Source of the DNA: Pelagomonas calceolata
Lineage: Eukaryota > Sar > Pelagophyceae > Pelagomonadales > Pelagomonadaceae
Length of the DNA: 64,000 bases
Reading direction: 5' to 3'
Assembly: GCA_918797485.1 (NCBI GenBank)
Contig: CAKKNE010000004.1
Coordinates: 3,596,001-3,660,000, forward strand
A program made the translations under genes and the position numbers. Below, in pieces: positions 1,885 to 62,648 of this stretch. The stretch's first letter is position 1, and each line of letters opens with the position of its first letter. Under the pieces are notes generated by a model. The model made no database searches. It was not told the DNA's origin and saw only the letters and a list, made by a program, of their open reading frames with translations.

Positions 1885-2404
1885 GCTTATCTTATCTCTA
1901 TGCTATCTCGCGCCGCGACGATGGCCGTGTCACAGCTGCTCAATGACAGTGCACTGTGCTAGATCCGTGTGCGACCAATTATTCGTGGCGCAAGCGTTCG
2001 CAGCTATATTGGCCCAGCAATTAAAGCTTCTCGCGCGCGCGCACAAGTGAATCGCTGCTGCGCTTTGCCTACTGCACTTTGCCACTGCGCCAGGCTGTAA
2101 AATCGACTCTGTCCTCCGTTTTCGCACCTGTCGTCTAGCCGTCTCGCGCCAGAGTTCCCCGGGGCGGCTCGACCAGTAGAAGCTTTCTTGTTTTTTCTAG
2201 TGTGTTACAGTGCAGTAGACTTTTGAGAGGCAAACTCCAAAAAAGGCCACCAGAGGTCGCTGTTTGAGCCGCACGGGGCTGAACCTGTGCGTTGCATACT
2301 ACAGCTCGACGCAGCGCCGCCAACACCGCGCCGCTAGAAGAACTGCTCGGCTCCCGGCGTGAGCAGCTCCGCCAAAACCAAGTTCGCCACAGTCAAAAGG
2401 AGAG
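1885..2404. other. Divergent intergenic region with palindromic motif
   Basis: 520 bp between the starts of the MAPR gene and the MTD1-type gene, so it probably carries both promoters. It contains the recurrent palindromic element at 2196-2219. No RNA gene or TATA box stands out. Confidence 0.5.
2196..2219 (+). promoter_or_regulatory. Recurrent palindromic element (copy 1)
   Basis: Reads TCTAGTGTGTTACAG then TGCAGTAGA. It matches the consensus CTAGTGTCTTACA with one change, and the flanks TCTA/TAGA keep the inverted-repeat design. It lies 186 bp before the MTD1-type start codon, in the same orientation. Confidence 0.55.
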
Positions 2405-3594
2405 ATGCCGGTATCAGTGAACAAGATCGACACGTCGGTCGTCGCCGAGACGCTGCGCCAGCAGATTAGGGAAGACGTCGCCATCGTGCCCGGCGCGCGG
2501 CCGCGCCTCGTCGGGTTTTTGGCCAACAAGGACCCCGCGGCGCGCAAGTACGCCGAGTGGACGGGCCGCGCCTGCACGAAGGACGGCATCGACTACGTCC
2601 TCAAAGAAGTGGAAGCGTGCGACTTAGAAGGAGCGTTGAAGGAGGCGAACGAGGACGCGGGCGTGCACGGCGTCCTCCTGTGCATAATTCAAAATTTCAC
2701 GGCGCCTTCGTGCGGAATCGTCGCGTCGACCTCCACGCCATCGACGCGCCGCCTGCTCGATAGCGTGGCGGTGCACCCGACTCACTGGTTGATTTGCACA
2801 CAGGCATCCTCATCTACTACCCCGTCTTCGGCGCGGAGCCGTCTTTTTATGGAGGGTCCATGGACGACCAGTTGAGGGACAACATCGAGCCCACGAAGGA
2901 CGTGGAAGGTCTGTGCAAGAAGTACCGCGACAATCTCTATAGGAACGTGAGGCGCGTCGACAAGTGGCGTAGAAGTGTAGTCCCCTGCACGCCTTTAGCT
3001 GTGGTGAAGTGCCTCGAGCACTGCGGCCAGCACACGGGCGCCAAGGATAGCGGCATGGCCGGGAAGGTCGTCGCCGTCGTTAATAGATCGGAGGTCGTCG
3101 GCCGGCCGCTGGCAGCCATGCTCGCGAACGACGGCGCCACGGTCTACTCGATAGACATCGACTCCATCTACGTCATGGAGCGGGGCCGCATGACGCGCAC
3201 GGACGTGACGCCCGACGACGCGATCAAGGCGGCCGACGTCGTCGTCCTCGGCGTGCCGTCGCCCCAGTACAAGCTGCCCGTGGCCACGCTCAAGAAGGGT
3301 GCGGTGGTGGTGAACGTGTCGGGCTTCAAGAATCTGGGCGACGCGCAGGAGGGCGACGACGCCGACTACACGTACATCCCGCTGGTTGGAAGGGTCACGG
3401 TGGCGTGCCTCGAGCGCAACTTATTGACGCTCTACAAGCAGTACCACGTCGGCAAGATCTCCCTGCGCTACCGCCTCGCCGAAGAAGTCTCGAAGCTCGG
3501 CGACGTCCTCGGCGACGAGGCGTCCGCGACGAAGCGCCACTACGTCCTCGCCGGCCTCGGCGTCGCCCTGCTCTACGCGTTCCTGAAGCGCTAG
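2405..3594 (+). CDS. NAD-type methylenetetrahydrofolate dehydrogenase (yeast MTD1-like)
   Basis: Two exons, 2405-2669 and 2804-3594, give 351 residues. The join is GVH|GILIYYPVFG, the conserved strand of this family. The enzyme oxidises 5,10-methylene-THF to methenyl-THF in one-carbon metabolism. Family marks are GFLANKDPAARKYAEWT, the PCTPLAVVKCLE loop, and VVNRSEVVGRPLAAMLANDG of the Rossmann fold. These resemble the monofunctional yeast Mtd1 group more than FolD. Residues 333-349 (YVLAGLGVALLYAFL) look like a C-terminal tail anchor, which is not usual for the family and hints at an organelle membrane location. The 134-nt intron is an introner, starts with GC rather than GT, and splices in phase 1. 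Start: ATG at 2405, after AAAGGAG. Confidence 0.88.
2678..2803 (-). mobile_element. Introner in the MTD1-type gene
   Basis: A 126-bp element with imperfect terminal inverted repeats: left CTGTGCATAATTCAA, right (reverse complement) CTGTGTGCAAATCAA. It is flanked by GCGTCCTC (2670-2677) and GCATCCTC (2804-2811), a 7/8 target-site duplication. The intron runs 2670-2803, taking its GC donor from the left duplication and its AG from the element end. Its inner part, CCTCCACGCCATCGACGCG, is the reverse complement of that in the COPI-gene copy, so it is inserted in the opposite orientation relative to transcription. Confidence 0.85.
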
Positions 3595-4125
3595 AAAGGA
3601 GACGTGGGGGGTGTCTGTCGATACTGTTAATAGTCTGCCTATAGTTTCCAGAGGAAATAGCTATAGTCAATTCGGGTTTCGGGGGCGCGCGCCTAGGGAG
3701 GGGTGACGGGGGAGCTATCCCCCGTGGGCGTGTACGTAAGCTTGCTGCCGGTCCTAGAAGCGTGTGTCGTCGTCGCCGTGCACGGGCGCGTTGGTGAAGT
3801 CCGGGTTCCCGCCGACGAGCCGGAGGCCGTCGATCTTGATCCGGGCGAAACCGCGTCGTCTTGACGCCCCAGCGACGGTAAAGGCGGTTCTTGAGCAGGC
3901 CTATAGTTTCCAGAATGGTTCATTTTCGTGCGGGTGCGAGGAGAGAGCTTCAGCGCTAGGGCGGTCGGATCAAGCTAAGTTCAAGGAGACACCAAGGAGG
4001 ACCCCGCTGACATAGCGCACGCGCGCAAATCAGCCCAGAGACCCCGGCGAAGGCTTCAGCGGCGCCGCGCGGCCAATCTAAGCTGCGCAAGGCCCCCGTA
4101 GGCCACAACACAAAAAACACAGCAC
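3595..4125. other. Intergenic region with direct repeat and gene fragment
   Basis: 531 bp. A 16-bp direct repeat, GCCTATAGTTTCCAGA, occurs at 3637-3652 and 3899-3914. The 246 bp between the copies hold the coding-like fragment described separately. The final 200 bp lead into the RING gene. Confidence 0.6.
3754..3900 (-). pseudogene. Coding-like fragment, unknown family
   Basis: On the minus strand this stretch reads LLKNRLYRRWGVKTTRF in one frame and then ARIKIDGLRLVGGNPDF, ending HGDDDTRF and a stop, in another. The two parts join naturally if about one base is added or removed. It has no start codon and is bounded by the 16-bp direct repeat, which suggests a copied or stranded 3' exon. It could also be the last exon of a gene whose other exons I cannot see. 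Family not recognised. Confidence 0.35.
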
Positions 4126-6967
4126 ATGTTGATCAAGATGAACGACGACGACGACAACGAGGCCGACCCCGGTCCCATGCCCCTGTTAGAGGATTGCGAC
4201 TCCGCGGACGAGCGCGAGCGCCTCGAAGCCTCACAAAGGGTTTTGGCCCAGTCGAGGGCCGTGCGCAAGCAGAAGGAGCAGGCGCAGAAGATTCAACAGG
4301 CGCGGCTCGCAGAGGAGGTACGCAGGGCGCGCGACAAGGAAGAGGCGGCGATGGCCGCGACCTCAGCGCTGCTGGCGGCCCAGATCAAGCGCAAGCAGCT
4401 CCGGAGCATCGAAGCGGCGCCGGAGCCGGAGACGTCGCCGCGGAGCGTCGTGATGCCGCCCTACGCGGCGTGGCGGCTCAATGCTGCGCCCGTCACGTTG
4501 GACCTGGCTTGGCGGGGCGATGCGAAAGTCGACGATGTGCCACCGCCTCTCGTCGAGGCCGAGCCGAAGCCGAGCGACGTGGAGAGCGTCGTGGCGGCGA
4601 TGGGCGACGACGACGACAAGTCCATCGTCAAGGACGTGGCGGCGACGGACGACAACGACGTGCCAGTCGTCGTCGAGGACGTCGCTGCGGCGACGGGCGG
4701 CCATAAGGCCGCTCACGATTGCCAGGAGCAGCCCGTCGTTGAGACAGGCGGCACTGATGGCGCTGCTGGCGGCGGCGCCGAGAATGGCGGCGCCGATGCC
4801 GACGCGCATGGCGTCGACGTGCAGAGCGCCGACGTCGAGATGGAAGGCGCCGACGCCGAGGAGGGCGGCGGGGGCGACGAGGAGGAGGACCCGCTCGACA
4901 CTGACGGCGTCGAGGCGGCGACGGGCGGCACCGAGGGCGGCGTCGTCGTCGAGGAGGGTGCCGCGGAGGGCTGTGGCACGAAGGGCGTCGAGGCGACGCG
5001 CGGCGGTGCCGACGGCGAGGAGGACGACCCCGAGGCCATGGAGGAGGAGGACAACGACGACACCATCTTCTACGTCGAGACGGGCGTCGAGGCGGGTGTC
5101 GTCGAGGCGCGCGTCGTCGACGACGTCGAGGCGCGCGACGTCGACGACGTCGTGGTAGGGGCGACGGGCGGCGTCGTGGAGGGTGACGGCGACGCCGTGG
5201 CCAACGCTGCGTCTGCGTCGGCCATCGTCCGGTTCACGGCCGGCCCGCTCCACGTCTCGACCAGCGCCCTGGACGAGGTCCTTGACGTGGGCGACCCCGT
5301 CGTCGCCCATTACGGGCACGGCCTCGTTGAGGGCAAGACCGTCGTGCGCAAGGCCAAGGAGCTCTGGTCGAAGGGCGTCGTCAAGGCCGTGCATCGGGTG
5401 TCGTCGCGTCGCGTCACGTACGACATCCTCTACGACGACTGTGGTACGTGCGAGACGGGCGTTCTCGCCTCAAACGTCCGTCGCCGCAGTGCCGACGGCT
5501 GTCCTGGCCACGGTCGCCCATTAACAAGCCCCCGGGCCGGTCTCGATCTCGTCGAGCCGGTGCCGACGAATGCCCCCGGGCATTTGGTGGAATCATTCAC
5601 CACCTTTGAAGTACCAACGGCGCCGCCGCCGCCGCTCATCACAGCGCCGACGGAGGAGCTGACGGAAATATGCACGATCTGCCACCACGAGGTGTCGGTC
5701 GACTGCGACGTCGTCCTCAAGTGCTGCCACGTGTTCCACATGTCCTGCCTGGGCGAGTACAGCAAGCACTGCGGCCACGCACCGACGAGGCGCTCGTTCC
5801 AGGTGCCGTGCGCGAATTGCCGCGTCGTCGACCGCGTCGAGCTCGGTACGAATCCTCGCGGTCCACAGCGTTATAATCCGCAAGAAGAGGCGGAGCGTCC
5901 TCAGTTAGCTACGAAGAAGAGGCCCGCTGCCGCGGCGCCCAAGCTCAAGAAGAAAAAGAAGAAGAAGGCGTCGCCACATACGGCAGTCGTCGTCGACGAG
6001 AACTACAAGCCCACGCAAGTGGTCGAGCCGTTGTGGCACCCGTCGGGCTGCGACCTCTGCTCGCGGCCCCTCGTGTTGTCAGCTGGTCGAGCGGTGGTGA
6101 TCGGCTGGCTGCCGGCGGCCGAGAGTGGGGTTCCTCGACATCCACGGCAAGCCCGCAGCTCTTTACAAGGCGGCCTTCACGACCGGTCGCCGCGTCGGAG
6201 AAGAGAAAGATCTGGAAGAAGACGAGGTCCGCAAGTACCTCGCGCCCGAGGCGTTCCCTTCGGCTGACGATTGTGTTGCGCTCATGACGGTCGGGAACGG
6301 CTGCGGCGACGACCGTATCTGCTGGACGACGGAGTTCGGTGGCGAAGGCGCTGGTGCCGGTGAGAACGCCTTCGAGAACCACGTGCTGTTGCAGCCGGAG
6401 GCCGTCTCTCCGCCGATGCGCGACGCGCTCCTCGGCCGCTGGATCGAGGTCTACTGGGCGGGCGACAAGGTCTGGTACAAGGGCCGCGTCGTCGGCCAGA
6501 AGATTATCAACGGCGCCATCCAGCTCAGTGTGAAGTACGTCGACGGCGAGCAGCACGACGAGGCGCTCCAGGACGAGCCGTTCGCCGGCGACGGCGTCCC
6601 GCCGGACGATCGCAAGCCCTGGTACTGGCGCTACGCCGAGCCGCCGAAGACGGCCGCGCTACCGGACGAGTCGGCCGACGTGCCGCCGCCGCCGGAGTTC
6701 CAGCTCTGCCGCGAGCTGAGCGAGGTCTGCGAGAGCGTCGAGACTTCGTCGTCCGTCGAGGCCATGGAGATCGAGGCCATGGAGACGCATTCGCACGCCG
6801 CAACGCCGAAGCGTTCGCTGACCGTCACGTTCCGCCTGGACAACGCCAAGAAGCAGAAGACGGACGTCGACGCCGAGGCCGAGTTCGAGTGCAAAGATGA
6901 GAACCAGAACAACGCCATGGTCCTCGAGCTCCTCGCGGCCGTCGCGGCGTCGCAGCGCTGCCTCTGA
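4126..6967 (+). CDS. Acidic RING-finger protein with Tudor-like domains
   Basis: The reading frame runs 4126-6267 and continues in a second frame to a stop at 6965-6967; the switch lies around 6086-6130. The N-terminal third is a charged helix followed by a very acidic Val/Asp/Glu/Gly-rich stretch. Next comes a Tudor/Agenet-like segment (KGVVKAVHRVSSRRVTYDIL), then a RING-type zinc finger starting CTICHHEVSVDCDVVLKCCH and ending PCANCR, so a ubiquitin-ligase role is likely. A Lys-rich tract follows. The second frame contains LDIHGKPAALYKAAFTTG and another Tudor-like segment, IEVYWAGDKVWYKGRVVG. The frame change may be a 40-50 nt intron (GT at 6086 or 6075, AG at 6125 or 6123 keep phase) or a small indel in the GAGAGTGGGG run. 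Chromatin function is inferred from the domains only. Confidence 0.65.
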
Positions 6968-7153
6968 GATTGGTCGTCTTTCCCCTGTCGCTCGGAGTTG
7001 CTGAGAAGCGCGCACTGGTCGCCGCCAGGTCGGCGTACGGAGCTTCTATCCCCCACAGCCCTGTCTAACATAACTCACTCCGATTACAGTATAACAGGGG
7101 GAAACTCCCCACTCGTCGCGGCGAGTACCCCCCTGACCGAACTACTCTAGAGA

Positions 7154-8689: not shown

Positions 8690-9079
8690 TGTATATTTTG
8701 CTTTTCTTAGAGCTATGCCGCCTAGCTACCAGAGGACCGACGGGCCTGCTTGACGCTCTGTGCTATGTGCTGCAGATGCACTCACAGCTGCACGAGATGC
8801 TCTCCGGTTTTTTTACGGCCCAAGCAATGGTGCGCGGCAGTTAGCGCCCTTGGCAATTCAAGTAAGATCGCGCTGCGATGGCCCAGGAACGCGCAGGCGC
8901 AGCACGGCTGTGGTTGCCGTCGCACGTCGGCTGTCGCAGCTAGCTGCATAAGGACACTAGGAAAATCAACGCGTGTGTCGCAGACACGTTCCCCCCAACG
9001 CCGCCGACGGGACTCATGTTATTTTCATTTAAATATATGGGGGATGGAAACAGGGTACGTATGTGCATGTTGACCGAGG
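8690..9079. other. Intergenic, 390 bp
   Basis: Upstream of the oxygenase gene and downstream of nitrite reductase. It contains a palindromic element at 8939-8961 and an AT-rich run near 9020-9040 (ATTTTCATTTAAATATATG) that may carry the nitrite-reductase 3' end signals. No gene seen. Confidence 0.45.
8939..8961 (-). promoter_or_regulatory. Recurrent palindromic element (copy 2)
   Basis: On the minus strand it reads CCTAGTGTCCTTATG then CAGCTAGC. It is about 250 bp upstream of the oxygenase start and in that gene's orientation. Confidence 0.55.
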
Positions 9080-11206
9080 CTACCGCGACATGGCCACCTC
9101 CTTCGGGACCTCCACTCTATCGACGGCGCCGAAGTTCTCCTTCATCAGCCCGGCGATGACTCCCGCGATCTCGTCCTCGTCGTCGATGGGCACGTTCTTC
9201 ATGTGCGGATCTAAAGCTAAATGGCCGCCCTCGCCGATCGTGCCGCCGAGGAAAATATTTGCCCCTGCCACAGCCTTCATCTTGCCCTCGTCGTTCTTGC
9301 GCTTCGCCGGCGCGCCCATGAGGCCGATGTCCGCGGCCTGGACCTGGCCGCAGGAGTTCGGGCAGCCCGTCCAGTGGACGCGGACGGGCTTCGGCGCTTC
9401 GACGAGCGCGTCGACCTTCGCCATGACCCGTTCCGCGACCGTTTTCGTCTCAATAATAGCCAAGGGACAGAACTGCGCGCCGGTGCACGAAACCATGGGG
9501 CCCTTGACGTTTCCCGGGTCGACGGCTAACCGGCCCATCGTTAAAGCAGGCTCCTGCAGTAAGGCATCAATGCTGTCAGCAGGGACGTTCGGTAATATAA
9601 AATTCTGCTCGACGGTGAGTCGGACTTCACCCTCGCTATACCGATCCGCGAGATCGGCGACGTGTCTCGCTTCCTCGACACTTAATCTACCAGCGGGCAC
9701 ATGCACGCCGACCCTCCTCAAGCCCTCATCAGCTTGCGCATGCACTCCGAGCAATTCCCGCCTTTCAAAGGCGCCCGTCTCGTGGGGCTGCGCCTCCTCC
9801 AGGACGACGCCCCGCCCGTAGGACTCGACCTCGGCTTTAATGGCTTTACTGTATTCCTCGACGCCCATATCTTCCACCAACCACATCAACCGAGCCTTCT
9901 GTCTATCTTTCCGGTTGCCCTCGTCTCTGAAGATCCTCAAGATCGCCTCACACAACGCCGTCACCGAGTACGGATCCGCCGGCACCCACAGCCCCAGAGG
10001 CACAGATTCGGCGACTCTCTTAATGGACATGTAGCCTCCCACCACCACGTTAAACCCAATCCTTCCATCTTGATGAGGCACCGGGTCCAACCCGATGTCA
10101 TTTATATAGGTATGAGCAAAATCATCACGCCCCCCAGAAATGGCAATGTTGAACTTCCGCGGCAGGTTGCCCCACTGCGGGTTGCCCCGCTCGCCCGTCT
10201 CCTTGTCTAACGATATGAGGTCGTTGATCGCATTGGCAATAGGCCGCGTGTCTACCAATTCCAAATCGTCCAACCCGGCTAACGGGCTTCCGACGACATT
10301 TCTCGCGTTGTCCAACGCGCTCTGGAACGACGTCATGTTGTGGTCCGCATGTAAAGCTTTCGTGAGATCCGCGCCGTCCTCGAGCGTCAAGCCTCTGAGT
10401 TGTATATTTTGCCTCGTCGTGATGTCCATCACTCCTAATTCATCACCGTACGGCTCGATGGTATCGGCGAACAACCTAAGAGTGTCGGCTTTGACGATGC
10501 CGTTCGGGATCCTCAACCGCATCATGAAGCGCCCGGGCGTCCGCCTAAATCTCGACAAAATGCCCGTCCACTTGAGCCGCGAGTTGATGTCGAAGTCCTC
10601 GATCTCGGAATAATCTAAGGTACCGGCGCGAATCTTCGCTGCGAAGTCGTAGAGGTCCGTCCACGCGTTCGTCGGGTCTTTTTTGAGCTTGCCCTGCTCG
10701 ATCTTGTTGCCCGCCTCGGCGCGCTCGAGCGTGGAATCCTGCGCGGGGCGTTTCGTGTGACCTTCGTGCGCTTTTTACCACTCTCTCTCGCTCCGGGCGA
10801 CCGCTCGCTAGTGTGTGCGGCGACGGGCTCTCTCCAGGAGAAAAAACTCGCAGCGTGGCGCGACAGCACCCAGCGCTCACGAGGTGACCGCTCGCAGCGC
10901 GCGCGCGGCCGGCGAGGCCGGCTCGCGGATGACCCACTTTTTTCTCCGGGCAGACGACGCGACAGGCGCGGCAGATTTTGAAAGGAGTGTAGGAGCGGTG
11001 CCGGGGCACCGTTATAGCGTCGCGCTGCGCGCTTCTCTCGCGATGCGTTCGTGCGACGAATTTTGCAAATGTTTCCTTTGAGTTGCCGCTCTGCAATTTA
11101 CAGGTAAAAAACTGGTGCCAGTCCGACGGCTTTGGACAGCGGTAGGGTTGTGGTAGACCATCGCGCTCGCGCAGCTTAAACATACTGCTGCTGCGAGCCG
11201 CGCCAT
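9080..11206 (-). CDS. nirA: Ferredoxin-nitrite reductase, plastid precursor
   Basis: Two exons, 11102-11206 and 9080-10738, give 587 residues, the normal size. The enzyme reduces nitrite to ammonium with six electrons from ferredoxin, using sirohaem and a 4Fe-4S cluster in the plastid. Cluster ligands are visible in CTGAQFC (about 452-458) and TGCPNSCG (about 493-497). RFRRTPGRFMMRLRIPNG and ITTRQNIQLRG are typical of the family. Exon 1 encodes MARLAAAVCLSCASAMVYHN, a signal peptide with a CASAMVY cleavage site in the style of secondary plastids. The 363-nt intron (10739-11101) has donor GTAAAT and acceptor GCGCAG and joins TSFLP to DSTLERAEAGNKIEQGK, restoring the conserved N-terminal helix. 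The downstream open frame alone lacks any ATG, so this first exon is needed. The intron shows no introner features. Confidence 0.9.
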
Positions 11207-11497
11207 CTTCCGTGGCGCCCTTCGCAAGTCACCCGCAGGGCGTCAAATTACAAAGTCCAGCCCTGACGCGACGTGGTCACCGTTGTGAGATGGTCCGATT
11301 TTGGTCTTCCTACGACTCCTTGCAAACCTCCGGAGGGCCTGGGACGCCAGAAGACGGCTGGCGAAATCACATCGCCCGGCGCTGCGGATGTTGCGAGATC
11401 GGAGCGCATCCGCGGAGCAAAACGCGCGAGGACGCGAGAGGACGGTTCGGGCGCTCGCATCGATCGCTACCACGGCGACTGGCACATTGGGGCAGCC

Positions 11498-12180
11498 ATG
11501 AGCTACCTGGACCGCTACAAAAGCACCACGGCGGCGGACCGACCACCGCCGCCGCCGACGCCATCAACGAACGCGACGCCGCCCCCGACGCCGCAGTACG
11601 GCGACCGCCGCGTCGCGCGCGCGGCGGACGCGGCGAGAATCCGCGCCCACAACAGAATCATGAGGCGGCGACTCGCGGCGACGAAGCCGCAGATTATTCA
11701 TAGGCACTCGGAAATAGTCATCGTCGCGCGGCGCGAGGCGCGGGCCCGCCACATCGACGCGCGCGAGCGGCGACGGGCGGACCTGCGGCGGAGCGAGCGG
11801 GAATCGAGGCGGCAGCGCCGGTCCGCGTCTCCTGCAGTGCATAAATCAAATCGTCGCGGCGCGTCTCCGCCACTGCTGCATCGCCGAGACTCACTGGTTG
11901 ATTTGTGCACAGGTCGCCGGTGCGCGCCGAGCGGAGGCTCCGGCCGGGGACGGCTGCCGCACGCGTTGCGCTGGCGGCGCGGCGTGAGGAGGATCGGGCG
12001 GCGCGGAGGATCGAGCTGCGCCGGCGGAACGCCGAGCAGGCGCGCCGCCACCGCGGCGCGGCGAGTCGGTGCGACACGCGGCTGTCGACGCCCGTTGAAC
12101 AGAGGCGGCGCCATCTACGACGACCGCCGGACCCGGATCTGGTGGCGGAGCTCGCGCGGGTCCTGGCGGGCCAGCTTTGA
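11498..12180 (+). CDS. Basic coiled-coil protein, possibly CFAP97-like
   Basis: Exons 11498-11826 and 11913-12180 give 198 residues, joined as RRSASP|VRAERRLR in phase 2. After a Pro/Thr-rich head (ADRPPPPPTPSTN) the sequence ARIRAHNRIMRRRLAATKPQ resembles the short conserved block of the CFAP97/hemingway family (N-x-x-L-x-x-R...KP). That is a weak match made by eye. The rest is Arg/Ala-rich helix. It starts 291 bp from the nitrite-reductase start in a divergent arrangement. The 86-nt intron is an introner. An upstream ORF in the same frame exists, but the ATG at 11498 (CAGCCATGAG) has the best context. Confidence 0.6.
11835..11912 (-). mobile_element. Introner in the basic coiled-coil gene
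   Basis: A 78-bp element: left end CAGTGCATAAATCAA, right end (reverse complement) CTGTGCACAAATCAA. Its flanks GTCTCCTG (11827-11834) and GTCGCCGG (11913-11920) agree at 6 of 8 positions. The GT of the left flank is the donor and the element's CACAG is the acceptor. Its first 30 bases are almost identical to those of the introner at 46325-46407, so the two belong to one subfamily. Confidence 0.82.
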
Positions 12181-12382
12181 CGCCGCGCGGAGCGAAAACC
12201 CTCCTCGCGCGGCGCCAGCGTGGATGGGTGCTTTCACCCTAACGGCACGCCATCGGCGCGGCGCGGCGATTCGGCGCGGCGATGGCGTGGAGCTGCACGC
12301 AGCGGGGGGACTGTAAGATGTGCACTTTTAGTAGGAGACCCTTGGCGGCCTCGAGGGGGGAGGGGGGAAGGGCACAAATAAC

Positions 12383-14258: not shown

Positions 14259-14744
14259 TATGCCTCAGGAGGCACAGGTGCCGAGGCGCTGCCCCGCGGC
14301 GCGCTCTTTCGTGCAGTGGATATGGTGGGTAGGCTGCGGCCTTGGGGCGCGGTCGCGGTGCGCCGGCGGTGCGCCGGCGGCGTGTTACAGCGAGGTGGTC
14401 CGAAGGGGCAGCAGAGTTGTGAGGGTGCTGGTGTCGTATCGGGTCGTGTTTCCTTGAGGTGTCTCTACTCGTCGGGAGTCCTCTTTCGACGATTGCTTGC
14501 CTTGGTCACGTATATTTCGTTTTCCCTAGTGTCTTACTGCCGCTACCCACTCGATTTTTATGGTCCATGCTTTTTTTTTGGCATGCTGCTGCACATGCTG
14601 GCCCAACGGTGTTGCTAGAATCGTGAAAGCATCTGTGTGCCCAGCTCCGCAGCTTCAAATCGCGTACGAAACCCTTACTGTCAATCTCTGCAGCCCTGCC
14701 AAAAACAGCAGCATCTGTGTGCTCCTCACAGCGGTGCAAAAAAC
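14259..14744. other. Divergent intergenic region, 486 bp
   Basis: Separates the 290-residue protein gene from the Arf-like gene. It carries the palindromic element at 14525-14546 and an imperfect doubling of GGTGCGCCGGC near 14357-14379. No gene seen. Confidence 0.45.
14525..14546 (+). promoter_or_regulatory. Recurrent palindromic element (copy 3)
   Basis: Reads CCTAGTGTCTTACTGCCGC then TAC: the consensus core with a slightly decayed right arm (GCTAC for GCTAG). It is about 200 bp upstream of the Arf-like start, same orientation. Confidence 0.55.
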
Positions 14745-15269: not shown

Positions 15270-15433
15270 CTTTCTGTTTGTGTGTGTGTTCGTTTGGTGC
15301 CGCGGCTGCCGCGCGGCGGTGGGGCGGATTTCAGGTCCTTGTCCAGGGACTTGTGTTCGCTTGGCGCCGGCGCGCGTCGCGACAAGGCAGACGCCGTCGC
15401 CGCGACGCACGAATTAACTATGTGTCTGTTACC

Positions 15434-19624: not shown

Positions 19625-19628
19625 CGGT

Positions 19629-19796: not shown

Positions 19797-19818
19797 GCTA
19801 GCGTATTGACGCACTAAA
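19797..19818 (-). promoter_or_regulatory. Weak palindromic element
   Basis: Minus strand reads TTTAGTGCGTCAATAC then GCTAGC. It keeps TAGTG and GCTAGC at the right distance but has lost the TCTTACA core. It sits between two divergent start codons. Confidence 0.3.
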
Positions 19819-22960: not shown

Positions 22961-22981
22961 GCTAGTGTCTTACAAGCTAGC
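22961..22981 (+). promoter_or_regulatory. Recurrent palindromic element (copy 4)
   Basis: Cleanest copy: GCTAG-TGTCTTACAAG-CTAGC, a perfect 5-bp inverted repeat around the core. It is 64 bp upstream of the DH/PDZ start but in the opposite orientation. Confidence 0.6.
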
Positions 22982-24445: not shown

Positions 24446-24468
24446 GCTAGTGTCTTACAACTGCTAGC
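24446..24468 (+). promoter_or_regulatory. Recurrent palindromic element (copy 5)
   Basis: GCTAG-TGTCTTACAACT-GCTAGC, about 170 bp upstream of the GST start, same orientation. Confidence 0.6.
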
Positions 24469-27506: not shown

Positions 27507-27904
27507 GTCCCGTCGCGTCAGGACCGCCTCGCTTTTGGTCACCAAAGGACTTGGGCTGATTGAGCCGCCGGAGAGTCACGCGCGTGACGTAAAACGTGAC
27601 GCGGTAATCTCGACCGAGGGCCACGGGAGCTCAGGTGCTGCGACCTTGTCCAATGCCAAAAATAACTAGTGCTAGCGGCGTGTAAGACACTAGCAATGCA
27701 AACAGCTTTTCAGCCGCGACATGCATTGCGCGCGCGCGCGGTCATAGATCGTTGGTGACGGACGCAGCGAAGCGCTGAGGCTGCGGCGCACTGCTGCGGC
27801 TTTTTTCCGCGCGTCGCGCCGCAGGAAAAGGCCTAAAATCAAAGCCTTGCCGCCACACACGTTGACGAGCGTCGCACCACAGAGAAAGGCCTAAAAACAC
27901 AAAG
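27507..27904. other. Divergent intergenic region, 398 bp
   Basis: Contains the palindromic element at 27671-27694, a (GC)n-like run GCGCGCGCGCG near 27729, and a repeated pair of phrases, AAGGCCTAAAA-CA-AAG, at about 27828 and 27886. No gene seen. Confidence 0.45.
27671..27694 (-). promoter_or_regulatory. Recurrent palindromic element (copy 6)
   Basis: Minus strand GCTAG-TGTCTTACACGCC-GCTAGC, perfect arms. It sits between divergent starts, 165 bp from the small membrane-protein ATG and 210 bp from the EXO1-type ATG. Confidence 0.6.
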
Positions 27905-31823: not shown

Positions 31824-31847
31824 GCTAGCGTCATGTAAGGCACTAGC
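31824..31847 (-). promoter_or_regulatory. Recurrent palindromic element (copy 7)
   Basis: Minus strand GCTAG-TGCCTTACATGAC-GCTAGC: perfect arms, one core change. It lies midway between the PHAX and dioxygenase start codons. Confidence 0.6.
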
Positions 31848-36246: not shown

Positions 36247-36831
36247 CTACGGCGGGGTCGGCACCGCCGCCGCGGCGCGTGTGTGTTGTGGTGGTGATGG
36301 CGCGGCGGTGGCGCGGCGGCACGGGGCTGCCCAGTGGTCGGGCAGCCCCAACCGGTATGCGCCGAGGCAGCCCCCGAAACCGTGCGTGGCGCGTCGACGG
36401 CGGCGACGCGATGTGCGTGTATCGTTTATACGCTGCCTCATGCATTTTTGTCGTTGCTTCGGTGCGGCCGGCGCTGCGCTTTGCGCTGTTGTCAACGGGC
36501 CTCTTGCCCGGACACGAGCGGGCGACCTCGGCGAGGCTTGAGGGGTGGCTTGAGGAATGGCATCAGTGACTTATGATATCCGGACGCGTAGAATTTCGCT
36601 AGTGTCTTTACAGGACGCTAGCCTTGGTTGCGGTGCTTTGGCGTCGCTCTCCCGGGCTGCGGAATCGGCCCTTGCTCGTTTTTTGGGCATCGCACGACGG
36701 AGCCGTACCAGCGATCACGACTCCAAGAGAAGGAAGCGCCAAGCCCACGAGCTCCCTGCCCGCAAGAGCTGCTGCCACAGCTCCACGCGGACCCCAGGGA
36801 CCACCGCGCCGCGCGCGGAGCAGGACCCAAG
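36247..36831. other. Intergenic, 585 bp
   Basis: Likely holds the 5' part of the charged helical protein gene and the promoter of the UDP-sugar pyrophosphorylase gene. The palindromic element lies at 36598-36622. Confidence 0.4.
36598..36622 (+). promoter_or_regulatory. Recurrent palindromic element (copy 8)
   Basis: GCTAG-TGTCTTTACAGGAC-GCTAGC: perfect arms, one extra T in the core. It is 210 bp before the pyrophosphorylase start, same orientation. Confidence 0.6.
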
Positions 36832-49178: not shown

Positions 49179-49583
49179 TGCTGCTGCTGCAGTGCTAATC
49201 TCGCTGCAGCTCCTCTGGCTTTAATGGCTTTTTGCTGCAATGCTACTCGCAGCAGGCCACAGCTTTATCCTCTCTAAACTCTGCCCTTTGTTCAGAGGGC
49301 AAGAGGCTTTGGAATGCCTAGTGTCTTACAGGCCGCTAGCCGCACCAACGAGGCGTTGCGACGCGAGAAGACTCTCAAGGGTTCGCCCACAAGTCCGCGG
49401 AAGTGTGAACTCCGGCGGCTAGTGAGAGCACAGTCTCCAGAGAGGAGGCGCGTTGTTGCTCCCACTTGTGGGCATCCCAGTCCCGTGGAGCATGGAACAG
49501 CGCCAAGCACTCTGAAAGCATAGTATTCTGCTTGGCGGGCTGCCCCCTCTGTACTCTCGGCAGCCTTCGAGTTGTGCACCTGT
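49179..49583. other. Divergent intergenic region, 405 bp
   Basis: Between the beta-oxidation gene and the Ala-rich protein gene. Contains the palindromic element at 49317-49340. No gene seen. Confidence 0.45.
49317..49340 (+). promoter_or_regulatory. Recurrent palindromic element (copy 9)
   Basis: CCTAG-TGTCTTACAGGCC-GCTAGC: exact core. It lies between divergent start codons, about 140 bp from one and 245 bp from the other. Confidence 0.6.
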
Positions 49584-54000: not shown

Positions 54001-57000
54001 GGCGGCCCGCTCCGCTTCGCCGGCGGCGCGATCGTGGCGAACGGAATCACGGCGGCGGACGTGTCCTACTTCCAGAATGCGAACCCGGGCGGGTTGGCTT
54101 TGTATGAGTCGCAGGACGGCGCCTACCCCCTGCTGGCGGCGGGCGACATGCTCTGCCGCGTCGCCGCGACGGCGGACACGTCGCAAGCGACGGCGCGGTG
54201 CTTCACGACCGGGCGGCTCGAGGTCGACGCGCCGCCCGCGGCGGCCGTCCTAGGCACGACCTACTTTTACGGCGACGCCGGGGTGCTCTACGCGGTCCAC
54301 AACGTCCACACGGACGCCGCCGTCTTCGAGGCCGCGGGCTTCGACTTCGGCGAGCCGGCGGTCCGCGACGTGGCGCCTGTCGACACGTACTTGGTCGGAG
54401 TCGCCGACGGCGCCGCGGCGCTGGTCGTCGTCAAGGCCGACTTCACGGGCTACGTGGCGCTCGCCGTCGAGAGCGCGTTGCCGGGCGTTGTCTTCGACGC
54501 CGCGTTCGCGTTCGACGAGGGCGTCTACGTGGCCGGGAGCGACGGCACGTTATATAAAGTAGACGTTGATTTAGGGACGATCGATGACAATTGCTGGGCC
54601 GATTCCGGGGAGGCTGCGCCGGCCTGCGCGGCGACGGCGACACTCAGTGCCGCGGGGCCGGCGCCGGCGGGAACTGGCTCCGGCACGAACTGCGCCGGCG
54701 CGCTCGAGTTGGGCACGGCGGCGCCGTCGTCGGAACCGGCGCCCACGACGCCGGGACCGTCTTCACGCCCGACCTCCGCGCGGCCGACGGCCCCTACGAC
54801 CGCGACGTACAGGCCGACGCAGTCTCCCGTCCACATCTGCAATGGTGTGATGCAGACGGCTCCGTGCGGCCCGACGTATGTTCCTACTCCTTCGCTGCCG
54901 ACGATCAAGCCCGTCCCGGCGCCGACGCGCGGATCCTGCGTCCACAATAGCGATCTCCGATAGATGGAAACGTCTGTGTTCTGCAGGTATGCGCCGAGCT
55001 TGCTGGCTCCGACATTCGAGCCCGTGCCAACTGAGGCCGCCACGACCGCGAACGCGCTGGCCTACGCGCCATCGAACGTACCGTCATACGAGCCGACGAA
55101 TGCGCTGGCCTACGAGCCATCAAGCGTACCGTCCGAGAGTCCAACCGCCGCGCCGACAGAATGTCGCGATGCATTGACGGCGGCCGTTTGCGCTGGCTAC
55201 CTGTCTATCGACGCGTCGGCGTGCGACTCGCTCTTCTGCGCGGGGATCGCCTGTCCGTACTCCCGCATGTGCGACGCGACGTGCGGTCTGTGCTACACGG
55301 CGGCAGAGCCCGTGCCGGCGCCGACGGCGGCGCCAACGCGGGCGTCTGGCGCGCCCTCGGCGCTGCCGAGCCCCACCCCGTCGCACCCGACGGGTTCGCC
55401 AACGTTCGGACGCACGGGCGTCGTCCAGGTCGTCCTCGCGCCGCACGACCGCGACGCGTCAGTGATTCGCGTCTACGTCGAGCTCAGCGCAGACCTGGGC
55501 CGCTTCGTCTCGATCATGCTCACGTTGGGCGACGGTGCGCCGCTCGTCGCGGTGCGCGCGGTGGACGACGAAGGCGACACGTGGTTCAAGCTGGACGGGC
55601 CGGTGCGGGCGGGCTGGCTCGGCGAAAAACCGCGCGCGCCGGGCCACTGGGCGGACCTCGTCTTTGACGCCGACGAATTCGACTTTGCGGCCCTCGACGT
55701 CGCAGCCGTCGATATAAGCACGGAGACGCTCGAGTCGGTTGGCGACAGAGCCCGCGTATTCTACGAACGGCCTGGCGGCCCGGGCGAGGCGCTCATCGTC
55801 GCTCGCCTCCTAGCCGGCTCGTCCACCGCGCTGGAGGTTTCCGTCGTGGCCGAGGCGACGGTCTGCGCCATTGGGCTGCGCTGGCAAGCAAATGTCGAGG
55901 CGGTGGCGTTCGACCAAGGCTTCGCCGGCGCGACCGCGGCCGACAACCTCCCAGGATCAGCGATCGGGCTGTTTGCGACGGAGAACTGCCTCGCCGGCGG
56001 CAAGTCCCAACCCGTTGTGACGCTCCACTTCGCCGACGGGTTCGACGTCGAGAGCTTTGGCTTCCTCGAGATGACAGTTGCCGACGACGCCGGTGCGGCG
56101 CTCGCAGCTTCTTCTCTTTCGCACCTCACGACGGAGGCGGTGTCCGACGCTCCGACGCTGTTGCCTACCGCGTCGCACCCGCCGACGCGCGTGCCGACTA
56201 TGGCACCAACAAAGTTTGAACAGTATTGCGGCCCGGATCCGGGCGACGTGGACGGAGTAAACGGCGTTGATGTTACGGACGCCCTTCTTGTCGCGAAGTA
56301 CACGCAGGGCCAGGACCTGCCGACAGCGGCATGCGACACGCGCATCGCGTTTGGCTGCGCCGACGTCAACGCGGACGACGCGACGGACGTGCTGGATGCG
56401 CTGCTGATCGCGCGGGCCTACGTCGGGCTCGTCGATCTGAACTGGCCGGGACCTCCGTCAGCGGCGCCGACGACCGCCTTGCCGACGACCGAGGCCCCTA
56501 CCTTTGCGACGGAGCCGCCAACGGAACGGCCCACCTACTCTCCCTCTGAGCGGCCGACAAGCCCACCGTCGACCGGCATTCCTTCCTACGAGCCGTCGGC
56601 GCAGCCCACGACGCTCTGGGACCCATCTCCGGCACCTACGGCGCCGTCGTACGCACCAACGGCAGCGGACACGTACGAACCAACGCTCGGCCCTTCGGCC
56701 CAACCAAGCTATCCGCCTTCTGCCCAGCCAAGCTACGAGCCTACGACCTCCGCGCCTACTGAACCTCCGTCGCGCTGGCCCTATTCCCCGACGCTCGACC
56801 CTTCAGCTGCTCCGAGTTCCGCGACGCCGCTACCAAGTACGGCAACGCCGACGACGCAAAGCCCGTCGATCGCGCCGACGTATGCGACGAATCCGCCGTC
56901 CTTCTCGCAGCAGCCATCGTACCATCCGACGCGGGCACCGATCCCATTCCCGACCGCCCGGCCCGTGCCACAGCCGTCTTATAGGCCCACGCCGGCGCCG

Positions 57001-60000
57001 CTGCCGGCCCCGACCATGAGCCGGCCGTCTTACGGGCCGACGTCGGCGCCATTGCGCCGCGCTCCCTCGTACTGGCCCACGAGATCGCCGATCCCGGAGC
57101 CCACCGTAAGGCCGACCCCTGCGCCGTCATACAGGCCGACACCACTGCCGACACTGACGGCGAGACCGACATTGCCAACGGGTACGCCCTTGGACGACAC
57201 CACCATCCGCACGGCAGTAACGGCGTGGTTCGCGGACCAGAGCGCTGCGGAGGCGACGTACGGCCACATCTCGACGTGGGCGACTGGCGGGGTGACGGAC
57301 ATGTCGGAGTTGTTTTGCGCATCAGATTATAACTGCGGCTACTTCAACTCGGACGCGGCGTCCTTTAATGAGGACATCGGAGCGTGGGACACCTCAGGCG
57401 TAACGAGTATGTCCTACATGTTCCAGCTCGCCTCGGCCTTCAATCAAGACCTCAGTGATTGGGCGGTCCACCGAGTTACGAGCATGGAAGAGATGTTCAG
57501 TCTCGCCGCATCGTTTAATCAAGACCTCAGTGATTGGGCGGTTGATAGTGTCACGAGTATCGCGTCCATGTTCATCTCCGCCTCTGCCTTCGACCAGGAC
57601 CTCGGCTGGTGCTTGGACGACGACGTGGAGATGGAGGGTTTTGCGGGCGGCGCGTTCGACAACACCCCGTGCGAGTCGACGTATTGTGGCGTGATGTGGG
57701 AGACCAATACTGGCGACTGCGACGTATCGCGCACGGGCAACGTCATGGTCAACTGGAAAATTAGATGGGCAGTTACCGCGTGGCTGGCGGACGCGACGGC
57801 CGCCGAGGCGACGTACGGGCACATTTCGACTTGGGAGACCGGCGGGGTGACGGACATGTCGTATTTGTTTTGCGAAAACAATAGTTGGGGGTCGGTTTGC
57901 TACAACACGGGCGCATCATCCTTTAACGAGGACATCGGCGCGTACGATGTCCTCCATGTTCTACTTCGCCTCGGCCTTTAACCAGGACATCGGCGCGTGG
58001 GACACCTCCGGCGTCACTACGATGTCCTCCATGTTCATGTACGCCACGTCCTTCGACCAGGACATCGGCGCGTGGGACACCTCCGGCGTCACAACGATGC
58101 AGTACATGTTCTACTCCGCCTCGGCCTTCGACCAGGACCTCGGCTGGTGCTTGGACGATGGCGTTGACTTTGATCCCGAGGGGCATGGCTACACCATTCA
58201 AGACGCGTTCTCCGGCACGGCGTGCGCGTCGACGTCGTGCGGCGTCACGCAAGTGGACGACGTCGCAAATTGCCCGACGCCTGCGCCGACGATCCTGACG
58301 TATTATCCGACGCCTGCGCCGACGTTTCTGACGCCATTGCCGACGGCGGCGCCCACGAAATCACGGATCCCGTCATATATGCCTACGATAGGAGAAGTGC
58401 CCTTGGACGACACGACGATCCGCACGGCAGTAACGGCGTGGCTGGCGGACGCGACGGCCGCCGAGGCGACGTACGGCCACATCTCGACGTGGGAGACTGG
58501 AGAGGTGACGGACATGTCGTATTTGCTTTGCGCGAATGAGTACTTGACTTCCTACGGTTGCAACACGGCCGCGGCGTCCTTTAACGAGGACATCGGCGCG
58601 TGGGACACCTCCGGCGTTACAACGATGTACTTAATGTTCTACTCCGCCTCGGCCTTCGACCAGGACCTCGGCTGGTGCGTGGACGACGGCGTGGACCTGG
58701 ACTACGCGTTCGGCGGCACCCCGTGCGAGGCGACATCGTGCGGCGTCATGGCAAAAGAGAACCCTGGCGATTGTGATGTCGCGAGCACAGGAAACGTCAT
58801 GGTCAACTATAAAATCAGAACGGCCGTCGACGCGTGGCTCGCGGACGCGACGGCCGCCGAGGCGACGTACGGCCACATCTCGACGTGGGCGACTGGGGGG
58901 GTGACGGACATGGAGGAGCTGTTCGAAGATGCTTCGTCCTTCAACGAGGACATCGGCGCGTGGGACACCTCGGGCGTCACGTCGATGTACAAGATGTTCT
59001 ACGGCGCCTCGAACTTCGACCAGGACATCGGCGCGTGGGACACCTCCGGCGTCACGACGATGTTGGGGATGTTCTACTCCGCCTCGGCCTTCGACCAGGA
59101 CATCGGCGCGTGGGACACCTCCGGCGTCACAACGATGTGGAAGATGTTCTACCGCGCCTCGACCTTCGACCAGGACATCGGCGCGTGGGACACCTCCGGC
59201 GTCACAAGTTTGGACTACATGTTCTACGAAGCCGAGGCCTTTAACCAGGACATCGGCGCATGGGACACCTCCGGCGTCACAAGTTTGAACTACATGTTCA
59301 AAAGCGCCTCGGCCTTCGACCAGGACATCGGCGCGTGGGACACCTCCGGCGTCACGTCGATGGAGAGGATGTTCGCCCTCGCCTCGGCGTTCAACCAGGC
59401 CATCGGCGCGTGGGACACCTCGGGCGTCACGACGATGTACGACATGTTCTACTACGCCTCTGCCTTCAATCAGGACATCGGCGCGTGGGATACCTCCGGC
59501 GTCACAACGATGTACTACATGTTCTACCAAGCCTCGGCCTTCGACCAGGACATCGGCGCGTGGGACACCTCCGGCGTCAAAAAGATGCACGGGATGTTCC
59601 GCTACGCCTCGGCCTTCGACCAGGACATCGGCGCGTGGGACACCTCCGGCGTCACGTCGATGGAGTACATGTTCTTCTTCGCCTCGGCCTTCGACCAGGA
59701 CCTCGGCTGGTGCGTGGACGACAGCGTGAACCTGGACTACGCGTTCGACAACACCCCGTGCGCGTCGACGTCGTGCGGCGTCACGCAAGGCAGCTGCCCA
59801 ACACGCCGCCTCACCGCCGTCGTCGCGCCCAAGACGCCGGCGCAGCTCGTCGTCGAGGCGTCCGGCGCGGGCTTTGTCGTGGCGGTCGAGATGGGCGGCG
59901 GAGTCGCCTACGGCGCGTTGCAAGTCGTTTTCTCCGCGCCGCTCGCCCGCTACCACGCGTGGCACGCGTCGACGGGAGACTATGTCCAGGGTGCGCGGGG

Positions 60001-60555
60001 CGTGTCGTGGTTCTCCGCTGTGGAGCCGCTCGAGTCCGGGGATTTCGCAACCTTCTGGGCGCCGGCCAAGCTGCGCCCGAGACGACGACAAGAGTCTCAC
60101 CGCGCGTGGTGCCTGCCGGACGGTCTCTGCGCCGCGAGAACAGTTCCCGCGGCGCGCCGCGCCGAGAAGCGCCCGAGTTCTCACCCTCGGCCGACCCGGG
60201 CTCGCTCCTGCGCGCTTCCTCACTCCGCCGCGAGCGCTCGACGCGTCAACTCGCGCCCGAGACGCCGACAAGGGTCTCTCCAAGGGTCTCTCCAAGAGTC
60301 TTGCCTCTGGGCGCCGGCCAAGCCGCGCCCGAGACGACGACAAGGGTCTCTCCAAGGGTCGCGCCGGCCGGACGGTCACTGCGGCGCGAGAACAGTTCCC
60401 GCGGCCCGCCGCGCCGGGTAGCGCCGGAGTTCGCGGCCGACCCGGAGCCGCCCGGACAGGCCGCCGCGACCGAAGCTGAGGCCCCCGAAACCGCGGCGGC
60501 GCCCCTGCGGCGCGCGACTTCCCTGCGACGCGAACGGAGCTCGCGCAAGCTCTAG
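51022..60555 (+). CDS. Giant secreted protein: subtilisin/kexin-like protease, P domain, dockerin-like domain, BspA repeats
   Basis: Exon 1 is 51022-54875; exon 2 starts at 54987. A 111-nt intron (GTATGTTCC...TTCTGCAG, phase 2) removes an in-frame TAG and joins [12 protein letters not shown]. Order: signal peptide ([20 protein letters not shown]); ~95-residue Cys domain ([15 protein letters not shown]); Notch-type LNR ([17 protein letters not shown]); S8 protease with Asp in [13 protein letters not shown], His in DSHGTRCAA, Asn in FSAGNEYD, Ser in [12 protein letters not shown] domain; second copy of the Cys domain; PT-rich linkers; dockerin-like pair ([39 protein letters not shown]); then four BspA/DUF285 modules. 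Near 57945 about 20 bp are missing against sister repeats, shifting the frame. The frame holding the repeats ends at 60421; the tail to 60555 is better in another frame. Likely surface or extracellular. Confidence 0.75.
57350..59715 (+). repeat. 75-bp tandem repeats coding BspA-type units
   Basis: Units of 25 residues, [20 protein letters not shown] plus five, repeat at exactly 75-bp steps. They form four modules, each opened by a header ([20 protein letters not shown]) at about 57210, 57765, 58430 and 58815, and closed by [10 protein letters not shown]. Unit numbers before the closing unit are about 3, 3, 1 and 10. The last block (58936-59700) is nearly identical at DNA level. Confidence 0.9.
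60053..60420 (+). repeat. Direct repeat of about 110 bp in the 3' tail
   Basis: 60053-60160 and 60308-60415 match closely (GGGCGCCGGCCAAGC, CGAGACGACGACAAG, GCGAGAACAGTTCCCGCGG). They are 255 bp apart, a multiple of three. Differences fall mostly at third positions of the frame that reads [17 protein letters not shown] and [10 protein letters not shown], which supports that frame as the coding one. Confidence 0.75.
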
Positions 60556-60720
60556 TGGTCTGACCGCCCCCCCTTCCTACCCTTGGACCTCCCCCAGAAT
60601 GGTCTGATTGCGGACGAGTGTAAGCAGATTATATAGAGGAGCCTCTACTCGGAGCCGCGATCCGGCGCGACGACGCACAATGCAGCCAATTCTCTACAAG
60701 ACCAACTTACACTAAACACC

Positions 60721-62310
60721 TCACAGCGCCATGAGCTTGCCCACCTCGCGGGGCGAGTGGGAGAGTTCCGGGACCCCGATGGGCCGCCAGGCCCTCGCCC
60801 CGCCGCGCCGCGCGGCCCACGCCTTCACGTTCGCCAAGACCTTCGACAACGGCAAATACTTCCGGCGCAACACGTCTCTTTTTTTGAGCTGGGCTGCGCT
60901 GTAGAAGCACTTCTCGTAGTCGGCCAGGTCCTTACGAATGGCCTCGGTGTAGGCGGCGCCCTTGTCCAAGTTCGCCCGCCAGATCAAATACTGCAGGTTC
61001 TCGATGCGGTTGATAAGCCGCAAAGCGTCGTTTGGCGTCTTGTCGTGGTTCCAGCCAGGCTTCTGGCCCAGCTCACTGAGCCACTGCGCGACCTGTGGAA
61101 CGTGGACCGTGAGTGTCGCGTCGAGCAGACACGCGGCGTACAGCGTCGCGTCGCGTCGATGGCGTACCCGTAATGATGGACGCAGGATCTAACCGCCTTG
61201 ATGTGGTCCTTGTGGATCACGCACGACGGATACGGCAATCCACGCTGCACGCACTTCTTCTCCAGTAGTTCTTCGATGTTCACGTCATCAGGGATGGCTG
61301 CTTGCAGGATTTGCTGGACCTCACCCGCAGGGAAGCCCGTGAGAAGTCTGCAATTTTCATCCGTGAGCTCGCCGCCCAGACCGTCGGTTAATGCGAGACG
61401 GAGGGTCTGCCGGACAAGTTGAGCTAGCTGCCTTTTTCCAGTACCCTTTCCACCGCAATTGCAAGCGGACACCTTGCAAGCCCTGCCACAGAAGCAGCAA
61501 TACGGTTCGTACTTCGCTTTCTGCTCTTTTATTTGCTCTGCATGATCTTTCTGGTATTGCTGATTGTACATCGTAGTTGGATGATGGAGGTAGCCCTGCT
61601 CGTCGTCCCTCTTTCTGGGGGCTAAGGAACCCGAGGCGATTCCGGCTTCTCGATTCCTTTTCGAAAACATCATTTTACGGAAAACCCAGGAGAAGACGTA
61701 GTCCGGGTGCTCTTTGGTTGGCTGCTTCGATCTTCCATAATACTCCGGATTGTCGGGGAAGAAACGAGGACGTTGTCGCACACTCTTGAAGTCGACCGCC
61801 ATTTCTTCCGAGTCGTCCGTGGCGCCCTCCTTGTTGACGACGTACACCTGGTCAGCAGCGTTTGACTCGACGATTTCCCACTTCGGAGCCCGGTATCTCA
61901 CGTCATACCCGCGCACGTCGACGAGCGTTCCCTCATCCAGATGTACAAAACGGGGCGTGAGCAAGCCGGGGTCGTAGTGCGAGACAGACCCGTCCTCGAA
62001 GCGCACCCTAATATAGCCGTCGGGCGTGCTGCAACCTTCTGGCAGCGCGGTGACCTCCCAGTACTCGGCGCTATCTTTGAGGTCCGCGGCATCGTAGGCG
62101 TTGAAGTATATCACGCGCTTGCCTTCGGAGTCCTTGTATTTGCTAGCAACGAACGCATTTGACGGCGGCGCCTTCTTCTTCTTGCCTTTGGTGGCGGTGG
62201 TCTTGGTGGTGGTCTTCTGTGTTTGCTTTTTAGCGGCCCTTGGTTTTTTGCCGCGCTTTCCTTTCTTGGCCGTCCGGCCAGCGCGCTGACTCCGAAAAGC
62301 GGCGCGCCAT
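60721..62310 (-). CDS. Tudor-like protein with Cys cluster, 5' end uncertain
   Basis: Exon 61182-62290 (approximate left side of the 5' part) and exon 60721-61092, joined as KAVRSC|VAQWLSELGQKPG. The sequence opens with a Lys/Thr-rich head (TAKKGKRGKKPRAAKKQTQK), then a Tudor-like segment (DGYIRVRFEDGSVSHYDPGL), a Cys cluster (YEPYCCFCGRACKVSACNCG) and helices with LTGFPAGEVQQILQAAIPDD. Family unknown; chromatin or RNA binding is a guess. The 89-nt intron (61093-61181) has GTCCATCA/GTCGCGCA flanks and ACGCCATCGACGCGACGCG inside, so it is probably a decayed introner. The long frame has no ATG before its upstream stop. An ATG at 62310 lies in another frame, so a short 5' intron or an indel must be assumed. 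Confidence 0.6.
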
Positions 62311-62648
62311 CAAGGCCGCGCGCAGCGTCTAGCGTTACCCACAGCGCTTTGCGCGGCGCCGAGGCTAATCTAGCGGTCTGTAAGACACTAGCAATTCAAA
62401 CTTGAGCCCGGACGGCGGGACCAATCGACCGGGCTAGGCCAGTGCAGATCTCTCCGGTTCGACATCCGGAGGCACGACCCGCACCGGAGGCATCACCCGC
62501 TGAAACGAACAGTGGGCTGCCCCCACCCGCGCCACTGCGCGTTGCGGAGCCACGCGGCTGCCTCGCAGCTCTTGACTCACCATTCGGACTGCTGCAGAAC
62601 TGCGCGTCGCGGAGGCACGCCTTGTCTTGCTGCTGCTGCTGCTCAACT
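62311..62648. other. Divergent intergenic region, 338 bp
   Basis: Promoter space shared by the Tudor-like and EF-hand genes, with the palindromic element at 62369-62392. CTGCTGCTGCTGCT just before the EF-hand ATG is a short trinucleotide run. Confidence 0.45.
62369..62392 (-). promoter_or_regulatory. Recurrent palindromic element (copy 10)
   Basis: Minus strand GCTAG-TGTCTTACAGACC-GCTAGA: exact core, right arm one base off. Lies about 60 bp from one putative start codon and 255 bp from the other. Confidence 0.6.

Follow-up and report, generated by a model that had tools for sequence, protein, structure and literature searches.

In yeast, Abf1, Reb1 and Rap1 act as general regulatory factors that keep promoters open. 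For pelagophytes, no nuclear promoter element is described among the matches listed in our topic searches. On the viral side, passages of PMC5917014 give AAAAATGA as the early promoter motif of the Aureococcus giant virus, and for Pelagomonas calceolata passages of PMC9481584 report 63% GC, 0.45 introns per gene and a peak of intron length near 210 bp that is called typical of introners. Here we describe a recurrent two-part motif, TTGCTAGTGTCTTACA-(0-5 nt)-GCTAGCT, in 64 kb of P. calceolata DNA (contig CAKKNE010000004.1, positions 3,596,001 to 3,660,000), a eukaryotic stretch of 64.5% GC referred to throughout as the window. With confidence a little above even, the motif is read from its sequence and placement as a putative bipartite site for a sequence-specific nuclear protein, lying in the promoter-proximal DNA of many unrelated genes.

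A preliminary description of the window had drawn the motif as NCTAG and GCTAGN around a central sequence and had listed ten strong copies, every one of which was found again at its position. The bipartite form TTG-CTAG-TGTCTTACA-(0-5 nt)-GCTAGCT describes them better: the left half is long and asymmetric, the right half is short, and the word palindrome fits the CTAG ends only. The set used for the flank, covariation, target-site and coding tests numbers 23 copies, ten from the window and 13 from contigs of metagenome-assembled genomes (MAGs; L numbers below), with the weaker CTAG pairs at L019 462, L053 8487, L081 496 and window 29717 left out. Across this set, CTAGT and the final T of TGTCTT are invariant (23/23) and TGTCTTACA is strongly conserved. 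T is preferred at -3 (19/23) and G at -1 (16/23), and the right side reads GCTAGC, followed by T in 15/23. The spacing from CTAG to CTAG runs from 14 to 19, being 18 in ten copies, 17 in five, 16 in four, 19 in two, and 15 and 14 in one each. In raw counts over nine eukaryotic sequences, 30 CTAG pairs lie at distance 14-18, motif copies included, and every other distance up to 60 holds 0-3. Five copies carry C in place of G before CTAG; three of them (window 49317, L018 9065 and L019 2199) share an upstream GGRATGC and a GGNC spacer and form a possible subtype.

The motif recurs above chance with a defined consensus. Allowing up to 3 mismatches, GCTAGTGTCTTACA is found 11 times in the window against 1.79 expected, a count reached by 0/100 shuffles; nine of these matches are previously listed sites, two (16663 and 30752) are others, and 8939 is missed. 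An exact CTAGTGTCTTACA-N0-8-GCTAG is found five times against 0.00 expected. When a two-block profile built from the 13 outside copies is run over the window, its top ten sites are the ten copies, nine of them at 23.7-40.8 and copy 2196 at 18.0, with the next site at 13.6. This test is only partly independent, since the training copies were themselves found with the window consensus. On 40 shuffles of the window, the same profile gives best scores that average 15.3 and never exceed 21.8, which leaves copy 2196 alone within the range of chance; its leave-one-out score is 11.8 bits (left half +21.4, right half -9.7). A profile trained on the very sites it scores leaves an empty range between 12.5 and 22.1 bits, and over 77 other contigs of the MAG G001 (823,965 bases) it finds no site of at least 20 bits, one of at least 16 and seven of at least 12. 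Two further copies, listed as weak at 19797 and 29717, fall into the background by profile, the former scoring 9.0 and the latter being absent among sites of at least 8; 29717 still has a CTAG pair at spacing 16.

Turning to genomic position, coding DNA was called from codon usage rather than transcripts; the models were trained either on the window or on genes of G001, and each was run at two settings. All four runs place 20 of the 23 copies in non-coding DNA, including the full ten of the window, which bears out the earlier claim that no window copy is coding. Open reading frames (ORFs) of at least 120 amino acids, called mechanically and not taken as genes, overlap window copies 14525, 31824 and 49317. 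In a gene-model pass that ignores segments scoring 15 or less, 20/20 examined copies lie outside coding DNA; L018 9065, L021 586 and L022 2147 pass as non-coding there because such segments are dropped. A list of 45 hand-drawn non-coding regions (18 divergent gaps, 17 tandem, 6 convergent and 4 contig ends) covers 19,564 of 137,002 bases, leaving out window 10775-12385 and small gaps inside dense runs. It contains 21/21 sites of at least 20 bits, and the leading non-coding word, CTAGTGTC, occurs 14 times inside the listed regions and 0 times outside. Two further words lean the same way and are possible promoter words in their own right: AGCAGCAGC (11 non-coding against 3 elsewhere) and GGGCAGCCC (8 against 3).

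By the same list, 20 of 21 eukaryotic copies are in gaps with a gene start and one is at a contig end. Counted by gap, a copy is present in 11/18 divergent, 8/17 tandem and 0/6 convergent gaps and at 1/4 contig ends, giving a gene-start bias of 19/35 against 0/6 (Fisher p 0.023, or 0.057 without the contigs chosen for holding the motif). Within the window the figures are 8/10 divergent, 1/7 tandem and 0/5 convergent (gene-start bias p 0.054). The preliminary description had put six copies between divergent genes, an undercount: by codon-usage gene models, 9/10 lie in eight divergent gaps and 8939 alone is in a tandem gap. The window's divergent preference is not repeated in the contigs outside it, where copies are found in 2/4 divergent and 5/7 tandem gaps of the chosen contigs (L018-L021) and in 1/4 divergent, 2/3 tandem and 0/1 convergent gaps of four unchosen ones.

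Closeness to gene starts, together with the same orientation in six of the eight tandem-gap copies, could indicate a core promoter element that sets the transcription start and is read in one direction, as had been suggested for the window. However, the other two tandem copies are reversed, and the split of six antisense to two sense is no significant bias (binomial p 0.289). Distances to the start codon spread over about 64-390 bp, and the motif is absent from 16/35 gene-start gaps. In the 150-bp flanks of the 23 copies, only the motif-touching columns -3, +1 and +2 exceed the 95% point of the shuffled maximum, so no companion element at a fixed distance was found and significance is confined to the edge of the motif. 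A core promoter element is accordingly not favoured and seems unlikely. A strong orientation rule, suggested by L019 and L021, was also rejected, being broken by L081 and window 8939.

A density of roughly one copy in every 6.4 kb of the window, mostly one per gap, would suit a different kind of site, one for chromosome architecture or replication that sits in promoter gaps only because these are open. The unrelated genes and the lack of significant orientation bias would suit it too. Such a density is high for replication origins, and the absence of copies from 6/6 convergent gaps, a small number, hints at a tie to gene starts; we regard an architectural or replication site as rather improbable.

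The arms of the motif had been said to covary, and an RNA hairpin in 5' leaders had been proposed; the CTAG arms would be its stem. Standard pairs do occupy 90.6% of cells, and folding of the TGTCTTACA strand averages a z of -1.19 and reaches -3.2 in single copies. Yet shuffles pair equally (90.3%), one cell of 160 is doubly changed, a level that 138 of 500 shuffles reach, and the outermost pair is broken in 8/23 copies. On the opposite strand, which is the gene's sense strand in 6/8 tandem gaps, the mean z is -0.62 and the stem would contain an A-C mismatch. With compensatory change no better than in shuffles and a weak mean z, the claimed covariation is not borne out and the hairpin lacks support; the hairpin was rejected on covariation and is very improbable.

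Another reading of the same copies is that they are remnants or footprints of a tiny palindromic element, mobile and inserting in promoter regions. Consistent with this, the strong copies are set apart from background scores, GCTAG forms a direct repeat at both ends, and 3/5 of the CCTAG copies have the upstream GGRATGC in common. A check of the 23 copies for target-site duplications gives p 0.01 at k=3, uncorrected and at one of eight lengths. The seven other lengths show no excess (p 0.11-0.61), the flanks have no significant common column beyond -3 and +2, the element is just about 24 bp long, and modelled coding DNA holds no window copy. The transposon remnant of the preliminary description thus lacks clear support from flanks or target sites, and we consider it unlikely. 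Contig L019 bears on the question from both sides. It contains a duplicated intergenic stretch (299-435 and 2050-2172; 137 bp, 78%), each unit being followed after about 27 bp by a motif copy, and this adjacency could speak for mobility. In the duplicated gap the outer CTAG halves persist where the flanks have diverged, which was counted in favour of a protein-binding site; at the 462 copy the TGTCTTACA centre is gone, both CTAG ends are kept, and the score with a window-trained profile is 16.5.

Because orientation is mixed, distances vary, no flank column off the motif is significant, covariation is lacking and target-site duplications are in excess at just one length of eight, a putative DNA-binding protein fits better than a core promoter, a hairpin or a transposon remnant. 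Such a factor would make its strong contact with the long left half and a second, flexible one with the CTAG right half, the latter being suggested by the variable spacing between the halves. Its presence in the gap would then keep the promoter open, in many cases for both genes of a divergent pair. Since the genes next to the motif share no common pathway by eye, a general regulatory factor would be favoured over a pathway regulator. The dimeric factor site mentioned among the earlier suggestions survives in its factor-site part, the best supported of them; binding by a strict dimer to two equal half-sites is unlikely, given the length and asymmetry of the left half and a spacing that shifts by as much as 5 bp, roughly half a turn of the helix. 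A bolder proposal, which we hold as possible but doubtful, is a lineage-specific general regulatory factor, not yet named, in pelagophyte-like algae, which would read an asymmetric two-part site with elastic spacing and organise about half of the gene-start gaps (9/17 in the window), above all shared divergent promoters.

Several points weigh against a promoter-proximal factor site. Codon models label L018 9065 as coding in all four runs, L021 586 in three of them and L022 2147 in a single one. The gaps were drawn by hand with the motif positions already in view, and L018-L021 had been selected as motif-bearing contigs; without them the gene-start bias is 12/24 against 0/6 (p 0.057), and in the four unchosen contigs alone it is 3/7 gene-start gaps against 0/1 convergent. 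In the window just one of seven tandem gaps carries a copy. Elsewhere, the tandem class of L019 7636 depends on an ORF outside the gene models, and for L021 2686 it depends on a neighbouring gene that two analyses place on different strands. The sharp gap in scores comes from a profile trained on those same sites; when the window copies serve for training instead, scores of up to 18.3 bits turn up on other MAG contigs, and the weakest strong copy of the G001 contigs has 24.5. The discreteness of the copies would also fit recent dispersal.

Outside the window, the two-half pattern has three matches in a collection of prokaryotic genomes (L001, L003 and L022), all in MAGs (G001, G002 and G003, titled Spirochaeta for G001 and Desulfobacteraceae). 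A true prokaryotic occurrence was rejected. The L001 match sits on eukaryotic DNA. L003 looks chimeric because its composition changes along the contig, from GC 0.47-0.57 and a CpG ratio of 0.61-0.97 in the first 5 kb to 0.67-0.68 and 1.32-1.41 near the end; the motif falls in bin 5251-6000, where one composition passes into the other (GC 0.54, CpG ratio 1.09). L022 is also probably chimeric, though less clearly so. One of its genes, with its start at 2295, matches no Pfam family and appears by eye to encode a plastid-type leader. Some contigs of G001 are read as algal contamination from their gene content: importin-like, DHHC, photolyase, CNNM and PAP/fibrillin genes, together with an acetyl-CoA-carboxylase-like gene and plastid-type leaders on proteins, these last two recognised by eye. 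Strong copies are present in six of eight eukaryote-like G001 contigs (L018, L019, L020, L021, L053 and L081) and in neither L051 nor L073, two contigs called eukaryotic from composition alone; the sole L081 ORF scanned had no Pfam match. Composition was compared over 87 sequences, namely the window, 85 of the 183 G001 contigs and one G002 stretch, and the 76 with a CpG observed/expected ratio of 1.14 or less hold no two-part match in 811,965 bases. CpG ratio and CTAG frequency flag the algal-like contigs of G001.

The window and the G001 contigs differ in codon usage (GC at third codon positions 0.79 against 0.63, correlation 0.83) and may therefore be from different species. They also have short repeats in common, at window 2674-2754, 45909-45958 and 47801-47854, L053 6251-6302, 6857-6889 and 7299-7335, and L021 2329-2398. 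Those shared between the window and L053 include 54 bp at 85% and 34 bp at 97%, and some lie near breaks in the coding frame. Probably they are the ends of introners, in which case the window would be linked to the same species or to a close one. The GC content and intron-length peak that PMC9481584 gives for P. calceolata are in keeping with the window. A second family of about 47-120 bp and 72-88% identity occurs in other eukaryote-like G001 contigs (L018 4824-4922; L051 1989-2110; L073 2942-3027; L081 1506-1619 and 10115-10234) and is perhaps another introner family or a sign of a second alga. Among viruses, the 19-base motif form has no exact match in IMG/VR, and a looser 17-base form is found on 12 contigs in two groups by their flanks. 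All 12 have the spacer AAAA or GAAA and lack GCTAGC, and the two with ORFs examined are phage-like, with the match inside an ORF. These matches were taken as chance, and a viral occurrence was rejected.

The ten window copies are placed as follows. Copy 1 (2196..2219, plus strand) reads TCTAG-TGTGTTACA, has a degenerate right half and lies in the divergent gap 1884(-)/2405(+). Copy 2 (8939..8961, minus strand; CCTAG-TGTCCTTATGCA-GCTAGC) occupies a gap between two minus-strand genes, the only tandem case in the window, and copy 3 (14525..14547, plus strand; CCTAG-TGTCTTACT-GCC-GCTACC) the divergent gap 14258(-)/14745(+). Copies 4 and 5 fall in one divergent gap of 1.7 kb. The former (22961..22981, plus strand; GCTAG-TGTCTTACA-A-GCTAGC) is about 64 bp from the start (22897) of a minus-strand RhoGEF/UBA gene, and the latter (24446..24468, plus strand; GCTAG-TGTCTTACA-ACT-GCTAGC) about 143 bp from a plus-strand GST gene (24611). 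Three more lie in divergent gaps ahead of plus-strand genes: copy 6 (27671..27694, minus strand; GCTAG-TGTCTTACA-CGCC-GCTAGC) ahead of an XPG/FEN1-like gene at 27905, copy 7 (31824..31847, minus strand; GCTAG-TGCCTTACA-TGAC-GCTAGC) ahead of a 3-hydroxyanthranilate dioxygenase (3-HAO) gene at 31990, and copy 8 (36598..36622, plus strand; GCTAG-TGTCTTTACA-GGAC-GCTAGC) ahead of a UDPGP-family gene with a model start at 36832. Copy 9 (49317..49340, plus strand; CCTAG-TGTCTTACA-GGCC-GCTAGC) is in the divergent gap 49178(-)/49584(+), and copy 10 (62369..62392, minus strand; GCTAG-TGTCTTACA-GACC-GCTAGA) in that between about 62279(-) and 62649(+).

Long ORFs of the window match eukaryotic families, among them XPG/FEN1, CAF1B/HIR1, SNF2 with a RanBP zinc finger, mTERF, RhoGEF with UBA, and 3-HAO, and scans of the window with Rfam and for tRNAs returned no family and no tRNA. 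At 54964-60421 there are two ORFs with DUF285 domains, one of them with 75-bp tandem units, adjoining a subtilase with a P-domain; a conserved motif upstream of viral DUF285 genes is mentioned in a passage of PMC5917014.

In the open-access literature, with subscription papers and supplements outside the search, CTAGTGTCTTACA has no occurrence among the matches listed. TAGTGTCTTACA occurs, again among the matches listed, in two papers on rolling-circle amplification, where it is taken to be part of oligonucleotides, and TGTAAGACACTAG in none of the matches listed. PMC9481584 uses neither "motif" nor "palindrom", and PMC13284251 is without "motif", "promoter", "cis-regulatory" and "transcription factor". 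In pelagophytes, which are abundant marine algae, a strong, recognisable promoter site would give a handle on gene regulation. It would point out promoters in contigs that lack annotation and could be used as bait for the factor. It may also mark algal DNA misbinned into bacterial MAGs, given that one of the three matches is clearly eukaryotic and two are on chimeric-looking contigs, one less clearly so.

How the motif stands to the described systems can be put as follows. Introners of Aureococcus and Pelagomonas, as presented in passages of PMC9860276 and PMC9481584, are likewise brief repeats in genomes of this kind, and some families have inverted ends; unlike them, introns within genes with a peak at about 210 bp in P. 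calceolata, the motif is about 24 bp long, intergenic and without clear target-site duplication. The Aureococcus giant virus element AAAAATGA in the passages of PMC5917014 is, like the motif, short, conserved and placed upstream of genes of a pelagophyte system, but it is AT-rich, viral and unrelated in sequence. Like the sites of yeast Abf1, Reb1 and Rap1, the motif is long and information-rich and lies in putative promoters of unrelated genes; it shows no significant orientation bias here and is frequent at the divergent promoters of the window. It differs from them in its sequence, in its non-fungal lineage and in half spacing that varies by up to 5 bp. In kind the motif would be an ordinary promoter-proximal site; its sequence and lineage appear not to have been described before.

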